Below are positions 3,887 through 33,951 of a stretch of DNA of 64,000 nt, piece after piece (positions within the stretch are counted from its first letter, which is position 1; every line of letters starts with the position of its first letter). The notes below the pieces were generated by a model that was not told where the DNA came from, did no database searches, and saw nothing but the letters and a program-made list of their open reading frames with translations. Location of the stretch: assembly GCA_945902075.1 (NCBI GenBank), contig CAMDMA010000004.1:1-64000 (forward strand), given 5' to 3'. The stretch is from Candidatus Kuenenia stuttgartensis (GTDB lineage Bacteria > Planctomycetota > Phycisphaerae > Phycisphaerales > SM1A02). The translations under genes and the position numbers were made by a program.

Positions 3887-6800
3887 ATGATGTTCCGCTT
3901 CTTCATCGACCGACCGATCTTCGCGACGGTCATCGCACTCGTGATGACCCTCTCGGGCATCATCTGCGCAGTCATTCTGCCGATTGCGCAGTATCCGAAT
4001 ATTGTCCCGCCGACCGTTCAGATTTCCGCGACGTACAACGGCGCGGACGCTGCGACAGTCGCGCAAGTCGTGACCTTGCCACTTGAGCAGCAGATCAACG
4101 GCGTCGAAGGCATGCTCTACATGAGCTCGACTTCGACGAGTGCTGGCGTGTCGACGACGACCGTCACCTTTGAGGTCGGCTATGACCTCGATATCGCTGC
4201 AGTCGATGTGCTCACGCGCGTCAATCAGGCAATGCCACAGTTGCCTGAAGCTGTTCAACGCGTCGGCGTGAACATCGCGAAGCAGTCGACCAACATGACT
4301 GCGGTAGTAAGCCTGTATTCGCCGAATGGAACCTACGACAGTTCGTTTCTCTCGAACTACGCGAATATCACGGTTGAGCCGGTGCTCACTCGCGTCGATG
4401 GCGTCGGCAACACAACAGTGTTTGGCCTCGAGCAGTATGCGATGCGCGCATGGCTGAATCCCGACAAGTTGTCGGAACTCGGACTGACCGCAAACGACGT
4501 GGCCGCCGCGATTAAGACGCAGAACAACCAGGCTTCGCTCGGCTCAGTGAGTGCAGAGCCGTCGGTTGGAAATCCGAGTGTGACGCTCGCGATCCAAGCA
4601 AAGGGTCGCCTCCAGTCAAAAGAGGACTTTGAAGCAATCGTTGTTCGCAGCGAGAAAAACGGCGCGTTGGTGCGTATCAGTGACATCGGGCGTGTAGAGC
4701 TTGGCTCGTATCAATACACGAGCACGTCAACCCTCAACGCAGGTCCGACCGCTACCGTCGCCCTCTACCAGCTTCCGTCGGCAAACGCTTTCGATGTTGT
4801 CGAGAAGGCCACCGCCGAGATGGAGCGCCTCAAGGCGCAGTTCCCGCCAGACCTCGAATACAAGGTCACCTACGACACGACGAAGTTTGTGCAGGCGTCA
4901 CTTGATGACCTCATCAAGACACTCATCGAGGCGGGCATCTTGGTGCTCATCACGATCTACGTCTTTCTTCAGTCTTTCCGTGCGACGCTCATCCCGATGA
5001 TTGCAATTCCAGTGTCGATCGTCGGCACGTTCGCAATGATGGCAATCTTTGGATTCTCGATCAACACACTCACGTTGCTTGGGCTTGTGCTTGCGATCGG
5101 ACTTGTCGTCGACGACTCGATCATCGTTGTTGAAAATGTGTATCGCCAACTTGAGTCAGGCGTCACCAACCCGCGTGACGCAGCGCAAAAGGCAATGGAA
5201 GAAGTCGGGGGACCGATCGTCGCCACGAGCTCCGTGCTTCTTGCTGTGTTCATCCCTGCGGCGCTCATGCCCGGAATCACCGGTCAGCTGTACAACCAAT
5301 TCGCGCTGACCATCGCTTTCTCAATCGGATTTAGCGCCATCAATTCGCTGACGCTCTCGCCCGCGCTCTGCGGCGTGTTCCTTCGAAAGCAAAATGAGAC
5401 GCGGTTTCCACCGTTTGTGCTCTTCAACCGTGGTTTCGACTGGGTATCGCATCACTACGCACGGTTTGTCCGCGTGCTTTGTCGCCACTGGTATGCGATG
5501 GTCGCGGTGTTTGTCGCAGGATGCCTTGGTGTCGTGCACTTCTTCATGATCACTCCGACCTCGTTCATCCCAAACGAGGACCAGGGTTACTACTTCGTTG
5601 TGTACCAGTTGCCGCCAGGGTCGAGTCTGCTCAGAACCCAAGCGGTGTCGAACGAACTTCAAGAGATTGCGCACAAGGACCCCGCAGTCGTTGATGTCAT
5701 TCAGATCAACGGACTCAACTTCCTCACAAGCGCTCTGCAAACGAATACCGGCCTGCTCATTGTGGTGGTGAAAGATTGGGACCAGCGCGACCCACGCACG
5801 GAAAACATTGGGGCGATCCTGCGTCGCACGGCACCGACAATGATGGCGATACCAGAAGCGCTTGTCATGCCGCTTCCGCCGCCGCCGATTCCCGGCCTTG
5901 GCAACGTGGGTGGTTGGCAGTTGCAACTCGAAGCCCTTGAGGGACAGAGTTTCGATGAGCTCGCAGTGGTCTCGCAATCGTTTCTGGAAGCCGCTCGGGC
6001 AAAGCCCGAACTCACAGGGCTGACGACGCCATTCTCCGATAGCGTGCCAATGGCGAGTCTCGACATCGATCGAACCAGGGTCTATGCGCTCGGGCTTGAT
6101 CTTGGCGATGTGTTCGCTGCACTCGGCCAAAACTTCGGACAAAGCTTCGTCAACAACTACAACGATTTTGGCCAGGTGTACAACGTGATGGTGCAGGCGG
6201 AAGCTGGCGAGCGCATGTCGGTGCGCGACATCATGAATCTGCGCGTCCGAAACAGAGCTGGCGACCAAGTGCCATTCGCATCTTTCGCAACGCCAAGCAT
6301 CCGCACCGGCACCGACAATGCGACGCACTACAACCTCTACAACACTGTTCAAATCAACGGGCAAACCGCCGGAGGTTACGGCTCGGGCGATTCGATTCGC
6401 GCAGTCTCAGAGGTTGCGAACGCAACGCTTCCAGAGGGATACACGTACGAGTGGACCGGCACGACTTTCCAAGAAATTGAAGCTGGAAGTTTGGCACCGC
6501 TCGTGTTCGGCATGGCGATCGTGGCAATCTTCTTACTCCTCGCGGCGCTCTACGAGAGCTGGGTGCTGCCGTTGAACGTGCTGCTCGCGGTGTCGTTCGC
6601 TGTACTCGGTGCGCTGCTTGCGCTGCATATCGCCGGACGATCGATCGATGTCTATGCACAGATCGGTCTCGTGATGCTCGTCGGACTCGCTGCGAAAAAC
6701 GCGATTCTTATTGTTGAGTTTGCCAAGGTTCGCGCGGATACCGGCGAGGCTGTCATCGATGCGGCGAGCGAGGCTTCACGCCTGCGTCTGCGGCCGATCA

Positions 6801-7039
6801 TGATGACGAGCTTCTCGTTTATTCTTGGCATCCTTCCGCTGGTCGTCGCGACCGGCGCAGGAGCACAAGCGCGACACTCGATTGGCATCACAGTGCTCGG
6901 CGGAATGCTTGGCTCGACATTGATGGACCAACTGGTCGTGCCGAGCTTCTTCTACATGTTCTACTCGCTCCGGCGAAAGTGCGGTTTCGGCGTGCCCGAA
7001 GCGCCGGCTGGAACGCTTGTAGCGGCGAAGCATAAGTAG
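3887..7039 (+). CDS. RND multidrug efflux permease, HAE1 (AcrB/MexB) family
   Basis: A 1050-aa inner-membrane proton-driven pump of normal HAE1 length. It starts with the usual MFRFFIDRPIFATVIAL first membrane helix, has large periplasmic loops after helices 1 and 7, and twelve predicted helices. Proton-relay residues are present: the Asp pair in GLVVDDSIIVVENV (D409, D410) and the Lys in GLAAKNAILIVEFA (K937), matching AcrB D407/D408/K940. With the two upstream genes it forms a complete tripartite exporter. The N-terminal MFRFFIDRP is typical of drug rather than heavy-metal RND pumps. A hairpin terminator follows at 7069-7100. No local regulator of TetR or MarR type is visible. Confidence 0.96.
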   Translation: MMFRFFIDRPIFATVIALVMTLSGIICAVILPIAQYPNIVPPTVQISATYNGADAATVAQVVTLPLEQQINGVEGMLYMSSTSTSAGVSTTTVTFEVGYDLDIAAVDVLTRVNQAMPQLPEAVQRVGVNIAKQSTNMTAVVSLYSPNGTYDSSFLSNYANITVEPVLTRVDGVGNTTVFGLEQYAMRAWLNPDKLSELGLTANDVAAAIKTQNNQASLGSVSAEPSVGNPSVTLAIQAKGRLQSKEDFEAIVVRSEKNGALVRISDIGRVELGSYQYTSTSTLNAGPTATVALYQLPSANAFDVVEKATAEMERLKAQFPPDLEYKVTYDTTKFVQASLDDLIKTLIEAGILVLITIYVFLQSFRATLIPMIAIPVSIVGTFAMMAIFGFSINTLTLLGLVLAIGLVVDDSIIVVENVYRQLESGVTNPRDAAQKAMEEVGGPIVATSSVLLAVFIPAALMPGITGQLYNQFALTIAFSIGFSAINSLTLSPALCGVFLRKQNETRFPPFVLFNRGFDWVSHHYARFVRVLCRHWYAMVAVFVAGCLGVVHFFMITPTSFIPNEDQGYYFVVYQLPPGSSLLRTQAVSNELQEIAHKDPAVVDVIQINGLNFLTSALQTNTGLLIVVVKDWDQRDPRTENIGAILRRTAPTMMAIPEALVMPLPPPPIPGLGNVGGWQLQLEALEGQSFDELAVVSQSFLEAARAKPELTGLTTPFSDSVPMASLDIDRTRVYALGLDLGDVFAALGQNFGQSFVNNYNDFGQVYNVMVQAEAGERMSVRDIMNLRVRNRAGDQVPFASFATPSIRTGTDNATHYNLYNTVQINGQTAGGYGSGDSIRAVSEVANATLPEGYTYEWTGTTFQEIEAGSLAPLVFGMAIVAIFLLLAALYESWVLPLNVLLAVSFAVLGALLALHIAGRSIDVYAQIGLVMLVGLAAKNAILIVEFAKVRADTGEAVIDAASEASRLRLRPIMMTSFSFILGILPLVVATGAGAQARHSIGITVLGGMLGSTLMDQLVVPSFFYMFYSLRRKCGFGVPEAPAGTLVAAKHK

Positions 7040-29050: not shown

Positions 29051-29126
29051 TTCAGGCTCCTGAGGGGCTGCGATGGTAGTCGCCCCTCGCACGACGCGCG
29101 CAGCCTTCGATACCATCGCCGACCCA

Positions 29127-30983
29127 ATGTCTGCCTCGCCAAACGCAATTCTCCGCCCGCCGCACGATCCCGCGACCGTGCTCGAAGACCGCTTTCGCGC
29201 CGCGATCCGTGCCGTCGCTGGAATCGACGCCGATCCCCAAATCCGCGTGAGCGCGAATGCAAAGTTTGGCGACTTTCAAGTAAACGCCGCGATGTCGCTC
29301 GCCAAGGAGCGCGGCGCCAACCCGCGCGCGCTTGCTGAAGAGATTCTTGCGCTGGTCGAACTCGGCGGTATCGCGATGAAATGCGAGGTTGCAGGCCCCG
29401 GCTTCATCAATGTGACGCTCGATGCGGAGTACATCTCAGCGCAGCTCGCTGATCTCTCGCGCTCCGCCAACTTCGGAATCCCTGCAGCAACCGATCGCCA
29501 TGCTGTGGTGGTCGACCTCTGCGGCGTGAATGTGGCGAAGCAGATGCATGTCGGTCACCTGCGCGCGACGATCATTGGCGACTCACTCGCGCGTGTGTTT
29601 GAACGCCTTGGCCGCAAAGTGTGGCGCGAAAACCATCTCGGCGACTGGGGACTTCCCATCGCAATGACGCTTGCGAAGCTCATCCGCGAGCGCGCCGATT
29701 TTGCACGACTCACCCTCGATGACCTCAATCGCGCCTACCGTGGCGCGCAACGCGAAACCGATACTTCTGATCTCGCAGCGGCACACGCAAACCATTGCGG
29801 CCTGCATCGGATTGCAGAGTTAGAGATTCAGTATGAGCCAGCGCGTGCTGCCATGGAAGATGCCAAAAAGACGCTGGTGCGGCTGCAGTCTGGTGACGCT
29901 GAAATCGTCCGGCTCTGGGAGCGACTCATTGAAGTGACTATGGAGCAGGTGTACGACGCCGCACGCACGCTCAATGTGAAAGTTGGCCCAGACAACAATC
30001 GTGGCGAAAGCTTTTTTCGCGATCGACTTGGTGGTGTCATCGAAACGTTCCGCGCTTCTGGCCACGCAAAGAGTGACCGCGGTGCCATGGTGGTGCCGTT
30101 CACCGACCGTGAACGGCCGCTTCTCATTCAGAAATCGGACGGTGGGTTTCTCTACGCAACGACTGACCTCGCCGCGGTGCGCTTCCGCACGTTTGAACTC
30201 GACGGAAGCCTCGTTGTGTATGTCGTCGATGCGCGTCAACGCGATCACTTCAAGGATGTCTTCGATGCGGCTCGGCTCGTTGGTTGGAATCGAACCGCTG
30301 ACGGCACCGAATCAACGCTCGTCCACCTTGGTTTCGGCGCAGTGCTTGGGCCCGACAAGAAACCGCTCAAAACGCGCTCAGGCGAGAACTTCACGCTGAA
30401 GGACTTGCTCGACGAGGCGTGTGAGCGCGGCACCGCGGAAGTCACGCGCCGCGCAGCCGATCCGGCTTCGCCGACACACGGCCTCGCCGAGAGTGAACTC
30501 CGCGCGATCGGAACCGCCGTTGGAATCGCTGCGGTGAAATACGCTGACCTCTCCGGCGATTTGACCAAGGACTACGTCTTCGACCTTGACCGCATGATCG
30601 CTTTTGAGGGTGATACTGGCCCGTATCTGCAATACGCCCATGCGCGTATCGCATCGATCCTCGCCAAGTCGGGGGAGTCCACGGAGTGCATCGCCGATAC
30701 GACGCTGCGCCTCGAACTGCCTGCAGAGCGCGCGCTCGCGCTTCATCTCCTCCGCTATGCGCAAATGACCCTTGATGTTGGGCGCACGCTCGAAACAAAT
30801 CGAGTCGGTGCCTATCTCTCCCAACTCGCGACGCTGTTCAATGGCTTCTACCAGGCGTGCCCTGTACTCAAAGCAGACGATGCGGCAACGCGCCTCTCAC
30901 GCCTGCGCTTGTGCGCGATGACGCGCGCGGTGCTCGCCGACGGACTCTCGCTCTATGGGATCATCGCGCCAGATCGCATGTAG
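29127..30983 (+). CDS. argS: Arginyl-tRNA synthetase
   Basis: A 618-aa class I synthetase charging tRNA-Arg. The N-terminal additional domain (about 1-110) contains KFGDFQVNAAMSLAK. The HIGH motif is HVGH at 141-144 within NVAKQMHVGHLRATIIGD. KPLKTRSGENFTLKDLLDEA is in the place of the KMSKS region and matches the ArgRS form. The anticodon-binding domain at the C-terminus includes ERALALHLLRYAQMTLDVGRTLETNRVGAYL and ends in the usual LYGIIAPDRM, close to the LGI.xpErM consensus. The in-frame start 54 bp upstream overlaps the divergent promoter region and is not favoured. Confidence 0.97.
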   Translation: MSASPNAILRPPHDPATVLEDRFRAAIRAVAGIDADPQIRVSANAKFGDFQVNAAMSLAKERGANPRALAEEILALVELGGIAMKCEVAGPGFINVTLDAEYISAQLADLSRSANFGIPAATDRHAVVVDLCGVNVAKQMHVGHLRATIIGDSLARVFERLGRKVWRENHLGDWGLPIAMTLAKLIRERADFARLTLDDLNRAYRGAQRETDTSDLAAAHANHCGLHRIAELEIQYEPARAAMEDAKKTLVRLQSGDAEIVRLWERLIEVTMEQVYDAARTLNVKVGPDNNRGESFFRDRLGGVIETFRASGHAKSDRGAMVVPFTDRERPLLIQKSDGGFLYATTDLAAVRFRTFELDGSLVVYVVDARQRDHFKDVFDAARLVGWNRTADGTESTLVHLGFGAVLGPDKKPLKTRSGENFTLKDLLDEACERGTAEVTRRAADPASPTHGLAESELRAIGTAVGIAAVKYADLSGDLTKDYVFDLDRMIAFEGDTGPYLQYAHARIASILAKSGESTECIADTTLRLELPAERALALHLLRYAQMTLDVGRTLETNRVGAYLSQLATLFNGFYQACPVLKADDAATRLSRLRLCAMTRAVLADGLSLYGIIAPDRM

Positions 30984-31007: not shown

Positions 31008-32084
31008 TCACGTCATAGATGGTGTTGTGAGTCCGGATGCGCTGCGATCTCGGAAGACCAATGCATAGGCCGCTCCGAGGATGGCTAGGAAGAGCGGAAT
31101 CCCGACGAGGAAGATGCCAACACAGAGAAGTAAGACCGACAGGCTGTACAAGATGGTTGCGACCAACAGCAACCCGAGCAGCGACCAACCAAGTCCCTTG
31201 GTTTTATTCCAACTGAGCTTGAGCGCGTCTATCGCCCGGATATCGCCGAGGGTCGAGTCGATCGCGACGCCCAATGCGAAGATCAGCCGAACCAAAACCA
31301 ACGCCCAGATCAAGATGATTCCCACCAGAGCCAACGCGACCCCTACGACAATCGCGACCACGGTTGCGACCTGGTTCGATCCCTGATTGAGCACAATCGC
31401 CAATACTCCGGCGAGCGCGGCCGGTATGTACGCGGCGATCATCCCAAGCACCGAAACGAGGGTAAAAACGAGGCCCGTGAGGAGTGCCCGTCGGTAGCGG
31501 CGAAACCCCTGAAAGATGTCATCTATTTTCGGTTAGCCGCGAACGATCTGCGCGGAAGCGTAGATGGTGCCTGCGAGGAGCGGAATCCCGACGACGACCT
31601 GGAGTACGTAACCGATGCACGATCCGAGGAGGAGAACAAACGTGCCTGCAGCTCGCGCGCCGGTTGAATCACTCGCAAGACTTCCCTCATCAATGGCCGC
31701 GATCAAAATCGTAGACAGCAGCTGTGGTAGCACGACCACGATCACGCAACCTGTATACACAAGCCCAAGGAGCAGACAGTTGATCCAGCGTGACTTGAAA
31801 GTGTTCCAACCCAGTTCGAATGCTGCTTGGAAGCTGTAATCACTTGTAAGGGCGCTCGCTGCACGTGCTGGGAGCGGTGCGGCGGCTGCTTCAAACAGTT
31901 GCACAAGCCCGGGATCGCTCGAAGCCGCGGTCCACACATCGGTGCCTACGCGCGCCACACGCGTCGATGGCCGAAGCGATCCAACCGCGACCATCGAGGC
32001 GAGTTCGTTCCAACCCAAAGGCCCCATCGCCCTTGACGCGCCGGCCGTTTCGTCGAGCACATACCACTGATCCTGCTGATTCAT
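31008..32084 (-). pseudogene. GYF-domain membrane protein interrupted by an in-frame TAA
   Basis: One continuous frame runs from ATG 32084 to 31008 and is broken only by TAA at 31533-31535 (codon 184). The first part has a GYF_2-type domain (WYVLDETAGASRAMGPLGWNEL, residues 7-60), a linker, and membrane helices from about residue 100. Directly after the stop the same frame continues as PKIDDIFQGFRRYRRALLTG and four more membrane helices to residue 358, the normal continuation of such DUF975-like membrane domains (G-x-P-x-x-x-D-I-F-x-G-F). A GAA-to-TAA change would explain it. Either the gene is a recent pseudogene, the stop is a sequencing error, or it is split. Function is unknown. Confidence 0.75.
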
Positions 32085-32166: not shown

Positions 32167-32814
32167 ATGCCCACGCTCAGCGCGAAGTTCCCAAACGTTG
32201 CCGTCTACGACCATCCGCTGATCCAGCACAAATTGTCAATCTTGCGCGACAAGCGTACCGGGCACGAGCAGTTTCGTCAGTTGCTCAATCAGATTGCTGG
32301 GCTGATGGCGTATGAAGTGAGCAGAAATCTGCCCGTACGCGCCATCGATGTCGAGACGCCCGTTGCACGAACACGCGGTATCGCACTCGCTGCGCCAACG
32401 ACGATCGTGCCAATTCTTCGCGCCGGACTCGCCATGATGGACGGTCTGCTCGCACTCTTCCCTGAGGCGCACGTTGGACACGTTGGCATCTATCGCGATG
32501 AGAGCACCGCGAAACCCGTAACGTACTACGCGAAATTTCCGCCAAACATGGCGCAGGGCTCGGTCATTCTGGTTGACCCGATGCTCGCGACCGGCGGCAG
32601 CGCAGTCCATGCGATTGAGCTTCTGAAAAACGCCGGTTGCCGAGACATCCAGTTTGTCGCCCTTGTGGCTGCTCCGGAGGGAATCGTCGCGCTGCATCGT
32701 GTGCACGGCGAGGTTCCGATTCACGTCGCGTCGATCGATGAGCGACTCAATGAACGCTTTTACATCGTGCCCGGACTCGGTGATGCTGGAGACCGTATTT
32801 TCGGAACGCAGTAA
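32167..32814 (+). CDS. upp: Uracil phosphoribosyltransferase
   Basis: A 215-aa cytoplasmic enzyme making UMP from uracil and PRPP (pyrimidine salvage). The PRPP-binding loop is VDPMLATGGS (about residues 137-146). Other family blocks are HPLIQHKLSILRDKRTG at the N-terminus, PILRAGLAMMDGLL, and the uracil-binding tail YIVPGLGDAGDRIFGT. Length is normal. It is followed after 27 bp by the DNA methyltransferase gene on the same strand; there is no obvious functional link. Confidence 0.97.
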   Translation: MPTLSAKFPNVAVYDHPLIQHKLSILRDKRTGHEQFRQLLNQIAGLMAYEVSRNLPVRAIDVETPVARTRGIALAAPTTIVPILRAGLAMMDGLLALFPEAHVGHVGIYRDESTAKPVTYYAKFPPNMAQGSVILVDPMLATGGSAVHAIELLKNAGCRDIQFVALVAAPEGIVALHRVHGEVPIHVASIDERLNERFYIVPGLGDAGDRIFGTQ

Positions 32815-32841: not shown

Positions 32842-33951
32842 ATGAACGACGACACAGGCGACACCACAGGCGAGACCACGGGCGAGACCACGGGCGAGAC
32901 GAAGCGCACCGAGTCGAAAAACTTCCATCAGGATCGCCCAGGTGGCTACTTCACGCCGAAGGGCATCGACCGCTCCGCGGAGCGGCACGATCGTGACGCG
33001 CTTGCCGCAAACGTGCGTTTGCTCGGCGACACTCTTCCCGCCGAAACACGCAGCGTACGCCCTGTTTCGCCTCGTTATTTTGCAGAAGGACCGGATAGCG
33101 AACTCCACGTTGGCGACTGCCGCGACGTGCTCGCAAATCTTCCGCAGAAAGGCGCCGTCGATCTCATCTTCGCCGACCCACCATTCAACTGGGATGTTCC
33201 GTACGCGGGTTGGAAAGACGGCATGCCGCGCGCCGCGTACGAGCGTTTCACCTTTGACTGGCTCGACCTCGCCGTGGAATGCCTCGCGCCACACGGCTCG
33301 CTGTGGGTCAACGTCGCCGACGACATGGCCGCTGAAGTTGTCATGCACCTCAAGCGGCGAAAGCTCGCGCTGATGAACTGGTGTGTCTGGCACTTTCGCT
33401 TCGGTCACAATCGTGACACCAGCTTTATCCTCGCGAAGACACACGCGCTGTGGTTTGCACGCGACGCTGAGAACACACACTGGAATCCCGACGCGGTTCT
33501 CGAGCCGACCGATCGGTCGACGCTCTACGGCGATTCACGCACGCAGACAAAAATGCACGGTTCACAGGGCATGCGCGTGCCTTTCGATGTGTGGTACGGG
33601 CCATTCTGGGGCCGTGTGCACTCGAAAAATTCTGAGCGAAGGCCACTCCACCAAAATCAACTTCCTGAGGTTTACCTTGAGCGCGTGATCCTCTCGACTT
33701 CGCGACCGGGCGATCTTGTTGTTGATCCGTTCGCCGGTTCTGGCACAACTGGAACAGTCGCGCGTGCGTGGAATCGCCGGAGCACGTCGATCGAGATCAG
33801 TGAGGATCTCGCAGCGAGCGCGTGGGAACGCATCACGAAGATTGGCATGATCCACCAAGGCCGCTCGCGGATTTCCTTCGATACCGCAAAGCGCGCGATC
33901 CAACTTTTCAAACTTGGCTCTATCGACGAGGCGGATGTGTCACGCGAGTGA
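32842..33951 (+). CDS. Orphan beta-class DNA methyltransferase (N4-C or N6-A)
   Basis: A 369-aa site-specific DNA methyltransferase. Motif IV (DPPFNW, residues 112-117) comes before motif I (DPFAGSGTT, 295-303), the beta-class order. HVGDCRDVLANL (about 93-104) is the motif that precedes IV, and the SAM-binding region closes with STSIEISEDLA. The stretch between IV and I (about 150-290), including WNPDAVLEPTDRSTLYGDSR and NSERRPLHQNQLPEVYLERVI, would contain the target-recognition part. The first 20 residues are a GDTT/GETT repeat encoded by four 12-bp units (32863-32910 region). No restriction endonuclase or specificity subunit is adjacent, so it looks solitary. The recognition site cannot be inferred. 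Confidence 0.88.
   Translation: MNDDTGDTTGETTGETTGETKRTESKNFHQDRPGGYFTPKGIDRSAERHDRDALAANVRLLGDTLPAETRSVRPVSPRYFAEGPDSELHVGDCRDVLANLPQKGAVDLIFADPPFNWDVPYAGWKDGMPRAAYERFTFDWLDLAVECLAPHGSLWVNVADDMAAEVVMHLKRRKLALMNWCVWHFRFGHNRDTSFILAKTHALWFARDAENTHWNPDAVLEPTDRSTLYGDSRTQTKMHGSQGMRVPFDVWYGPFWGRVHSKNSERRPLHQNQLPEVYLERVILSTSRPGDLVVDPFAGSGTTGTVARAWNRRSTSIEISEDLAASAWERITKIGMIHQGRSRISFDTAKRAIQLFKLGSIDEADVSRE

Follow-up and report, generated by a model that had tools for sequence, protein, structure and literature searches.

In the 64,000-nucleotide stretch of the Candidatus Kuenenia stuttgartensis assembly analyzed here (contig CAMDMA010000004.1; hereafter the window), a gene for a putative GYF-domain membrane protein is cut in two by one stop codon, which raises the question of whether the stop is a lesion carried by living cells, an error in the assembled sequence, or a break across which both halves are still made. 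On the minus strand, the frame runs from ATG 32084 to the TGA at 31008-31010 and consists of 183 codons, the TAA at 31533-31535 and a further 174 codons, so that both halves form one reading frame over positions 32084 to 31011 (Table 1). A preceding sequence-only reading had described this single in-frame TAA as splitting a GYF-domain membrane protein, and the sequence confirmed both the stop and its coordinates. That the codons on either side share one frame and encode a continuous domain was likewise borne out, with both halves matching the same unbroken homologues. Judged by sequence comparison, a same-frame match to one protein on either side of the TAA is not a product of chance.

Table 1. 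Features of the interrupted frame and of the genes on either side of it (window positions).
Feature	Position	Strand	Remarks
argS-like gene	29073..30983	+	other flank of the slot; called from sequence
C-terminal half, 174 codons	31011..31532	-	hydrophobic domain; TGA 31008-31010 after it
First ATG past the TAA	31440-31442	-	read from sequence
First ATG/GTG/TTG past the TAA (GTG)	31449..31451	-	27 codons in between; 81 nt downstream
In-frame TAA	31533..31535	-	codon 184; between hydrophobic segments, just before D-I-F-Q-G-F-R-R-Y
N-terminal half, 183 codons	31536..32084	-	GYF_2 (residues 7-60) followed by 2-3 hydrophobic segments
upp-like gene	32167..32814	+	one flank of the slot; called from sequence

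By codon usage, both halves score as coding. The N-terminal half reached 0.116 bits per codon, calculated over a stop-to-stop frame of 206 codons of which part precedes the ATG, and the C-terminal half reached 0.169 bits per codon; the yardsticks were the training ORFs (n = 32), with a mean of 0.135, and the full set of frames of at least 50 codons, whose median was -0.218. The TAA had also been attributed to one G-to-T change. Such a change is possible, but several other single changes would give the same codon and, because seven relatives have D, E, R, E, K, A and T, respectively, at the residue aligned to the TAA, no one original codon can be deduced.

We then considered what the two halves encode. 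The motif GGGGGAG lies upstream of ATG 32084, and the N-terminal half carries a GYF_2 domain (PF14237) that scored above the Pfam cut-off (27.8 versus 25.8 bits; 30.1 bits for the same domain in a genome-wide search). The C-terminal half weakly resembles GPDPase_memb and DUF975 and falls below both Pfam cut-offs, at 19.2 versus 29.6 bits for GPDPase_memb (PF10110) and 14.1 versus 34.8 bits for DUF975 (PF06161), while NCBIfam gave no match for either half up to an E-value of 1. By hydropathy, the TAA is preceded by two or three hydrophobic segments and followed by three long ones. GYF-type domains bind proline-rich partners. The predicted product is a membrane protein with a GYF-type domain, to which no finer molecular function is assignable from its sequence. 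Neither "GYF domain" nor "DUF4339" appeared in the papers listed by a literature search on this protein type in Planctomycetes. Elsewhere in the same genome, three other GYF_2 matches were seen, two of them above the cut-off (G000:C7:73567-73710, G000:C48:16201-16335 and G000:C2:143641-143751), and the C-terminal half had no other match there at an E-value of 0.001.

Among 61 genomes, the window's own included, the N-terminal half was matched in 10 and the C-terminal half in 15. Both halves were found at one place in eight relatives (G003, G006, G013, G014, G015, G028, G031 and G032), in every case as one open frame. A profile search of 181 genomes of the family, in which at most 11 candidates per genome were scored, returned a match at an E-value of 1e-10 in 67 of them. 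There were 21 strong matches (at least 170 bits), all spanning the TAA site, and the stop was present in a single one, the window copy; the other 20 had none. Five lower-scoring matches besides the query had stops listed. In four (G080, G078, G076 and G071) the stops precede the apparent ATG, so these genes look intact; the fifth is a relic in G064, described below. In several genomes of genus g41 we also observed two neighbouring homologous copies in which the match starts after the GYF part (for example, G074:C55:5135-6046 and 6162-6878), possibly a tandem pair of the membrane domain.

Given a stop in 1/21 strong matches, two separate genes are not the normal state of this family, and we rejected that candidate (0/20 of the other strong matches in the 181 genomes carry a stop). 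Had all close relatives possessed two separate genes, the idea of one gene cut by the TAA would have fallen, as the sequence-only reading recognized; the strong matches in relatives are unbroken. A stop conserved at the same place, as expected of programmed readthrough or of a split gene, was seen in 0/20. What was found is one mark of a pseudogene, a frame broken relative to intact orthologues, with the TAA here and none in the 20 others.

The neighbourhood was informative about whether the gene is needed. It lies between two genes which we take to be upp (32167..32814; uracil phosphoribosyltransferase) and argS (29073..30983; arginyl-tRNA synthetase), divergent from the former and convergent with the latter. 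After upp, an ORF at 32842-33951 (+) contains DPPFNWD, which may correspond to a DNA N-methyltransferase catalytic motif. We searched 16 genomes of the genus and found the flanks in 14, our own included; the flanks went unmatched in G001 and G009, which hence yielded no data on the slot. An intact GYF gene occupies the slot in G003, G013, G014 and G015, and in G006 the gene is open to the contig end, while the copy in our own genome (G000) bears the TAA. The slot is empty in G002, G004, G005, G008, G010 and G011, where 24-64 bp separate the first matched upp codon from the last matched argS codon. In G007 (L053:1041-1808) and G012 (L050:893-1765) it is filled by a methyltransferase-like gene, scoring 21.8 and 20.3 bits, respectively, against Methyltransf_11 (cut-off 21.2). 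Because a methyltransferase-like gene here takes the place of the GYF gene or of emptiness, the upp-argS gap behaves as a variable slot and, since the slots of the genus are variously intact, empty, replaced or stop-bearing, the GYF gene is plainly dispensable.

Tree support was uneven. The sisters G008 (slot empty) and G014 (gene present) are joined at a node with a support of 92, but gene-tree nodes had a support of 39-77, and several genome-tree nodes one of 48-73. Our claim of loss or replacement accordingly relies on which close relatives have or lack the gene and does not extend to a number of events. G014 and G003 are paired in the gene tree (support 73), unlike in the genome tree; the gene may have been exchanged between lineages.

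A similar picture emerged from g17, another genus of the family: upp is present in 4/4 genomes, and three of the four carry an intact GYF gene in the upp-argS slot. Since the gene occupies the upp-argS slot in both genera, its presence there would appear to be the older state, as this distribution suggests. In the fourth g17 genome, G064, the slot holds a decayed copy (about L099:93-479). Its similarity to the N-terminal half starts at about residue 57 and abuts upp, leaving the GYF part unrecognisable; a TAG stands at L099:336-338, and the alignment to the intact G031 protein breaks off near residue 157 and resumes near residue 319, an internal deletion.

We next asked how old the stop in the window copy might be. 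Of the 26 columns invariant in the other homologues, the window copy breaks one, the fewest of the eight compared. Taken alone, the C-terminal half breaks 1/13 columns in the set of eight and 3/18 among the genus copies, level with some of the others, and by this test it is no better preserved than its counterparts in intact genes. In the gene tree, the root-to-tip distance of the window copy (1.125) is the smallest of six genus copies (others 1.209-1.800), and its terminal branch (0.714) is the third shortest after G014 (0.454) and G003 (0.598). Relaxed selection, looked for in broken conserved columns and branch lengths, left neither an excess of breaks nor a long branch, and the window copy contains no second stop and no frameshift. 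If both halves were neutral, the absence of further stops would allow neutral divergence of up to about 9% at 95%, a weak bound. Apart from the TAA, the window copy is thus as well conserved as intact copies, as it would be if the mutation were very young, if the assembly were wrong at this codon or if the gene were still of use. Because few columns are broken, the distance is short and neither a second stop nor a frameshift is present, the nonsense mutation, if real, is probably recent.

Among the alternatives, the one that survives best is that the stop is an error of consensus or assembly, or that the consensus picked up a minority variant, and that the gene in living cells is intact and gives a full-length protein. 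We regard this as unlikely, though deserving serious attention. Outside the stop, the gene shows as much constraint as intact copies do, the draft genome comprises 70 contigs at 97.25% completeness and may have been assembled from a metagenome, and a second genome of the species was not found; a scan of genome contigs with the read-through protein, in a set that may omit near records, returned two distant loci (27-29% identical) and no nearer intact copy from this species. Against an error, 0/52 of the genome's ABC_tran matches contained an internal stop, a figure that covers the matched stretches of well-conserved genes only. In a survey of the window, three in-frame pairs of coding frames were split by one stop; in each, a start lies at most 9 codons from the stop, so that they resemble ordinary neighbouring genes. 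The limit of this survey was 0.12 and the GYF pair, just below it at 0.116, was therefore unlisted. Neither the ABC_tran control nor the survey points to a general assembly problem. No homopolymer longer than 4 bases occurs within the 51 bases around TAA 31533-31535, which also counts against an error, and the gene is one that can be lost, so that a real lesion is plausible; in a dispensable gene, it is expected.

Alternatively, translation might restart after the TAA to give a two-chain membrane protein, or read through it to give some full-length protein. This we consider very improbable, although the TAA sits in a loop between hydrophobic segments, conserved residues are kept in both halves, and a good ribosome-binding site precedes the N-terminal half. 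UAA is not known as a typically leaky stop, and the 20 other strong matches are all unsplit, which speaks against restart and readthrough alike. For restart, the second half had been credited with its own ATG at 31451; that position proved to be a GTG, and the ATG is at 31442. No Shine-Dalgarno motif is visible at either GTG 31451 or ATG 31442, so the nearest start lies 81 nt past the TAA with no such motif. In E. coli, more than 75% of intercistronic distances are below 30 nt, and post-termination ribosomes look for a Shine-Dalgarno motif, as stated in a review (PMC5972666). A product begun at GTG 31451 would lack D-I-F-Q-G-F-R-R-Y and would start at residue 212, within segment 207-226, the first hydrophobic segment of the C-terminal half. 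Homologues conserve the lost stretch well, although the Y is its one residue that is invariant across the eight. The two-chain reading, if true, would explain the good conservation of both halves, yet that one protein has turned into two working chains, the second start as yet without a ribosome-binding site, seems to us more improbable still.

Finally, reassignment of TAA to an amino acid in the window organism, for which nothing speaks but the single codon, can practically be dismissed because none of the 52 ABC_tran matches has an internal stop and the upp frame of the window itself ends at TAA.

We conclude that the locus most probably records a recent nonsense mutation interrupting an accessory GYF-domain membrane-protein gene of a kind that relatives lose. 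Of the three options offered at the outset by the sequence-only reading, nonsense mutation fits best, because the 20 other strong matches are unbroken and the slot gene is absent, replaced or decayed elsewhere; the idea that both halves are made found no positive support. Under a nonsense mutation, the stop would be present in living cells, and the product would be truncated and its old function gone. Translation would run from ATG 32084 to TAA 31533, yielding a 183-residue fragment that keeps the first hydrophobic segments as well as the GYF domain, while the C-terminal membrane domain would probably not be made. Gene loss would be tolerated in the upp-argS interval, with the window copy representing a first step of decay.

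Whether the fragment persists may be judged by analogy. In two endosymbionts, transcripts of pseudogenes are still detectable and, in one of them, many bind ribosomes, while few endosymbiont pseudogenes give detectable protein, according to a published study (PMC13345370). By the same token, since pseudogene transcripts can bind ribosomes, the N-terminal fragment may be made in the window organism.

Bacterial genomes commonly contain broken genes, and the kind of event is well known, an ordinary gene loss. As one more broken accessory gene, the window copy has little significance by itself. The slot as a whole, lying between housekeeping-like genes and found intact, freshly stopped, heavily decayed, empty or replaced, forms a small natural series of gene loss, and its value is modest, as a snapshot of that process.

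Set beside known systems, the predicted protein shares only its first part with a solved structure. When solved structures were searched with the family profile up to an E-value of 1, the sole match was 7z3c_A (E 6.6e-5), Adventurous gliding motility protein X, with which the GYF domain is shared over profile positions 2-66 only; the membrane part of the profile, unlike the GYF part, had no solved-structure match by sequence. Closer likeness is found among the GYF_2 (PF14237) membrane proteins of the same family, which likewise have an N-terminal GYF_2 domain above the cut-off, a similar length and the same C-terminal domain; seven homologues are 36-49% identical to the N-terminal half and 34-42% to the C-terminal half. 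The window copy differs from the 20 other strong matches in its stop at codon 184. It resembles the G064 relic in being the same gene, in the same upp-argS slot, with an in-frame stop, whereas the relic is far more decayed, carries a different stop (TAG) and has most of its second half deleted.
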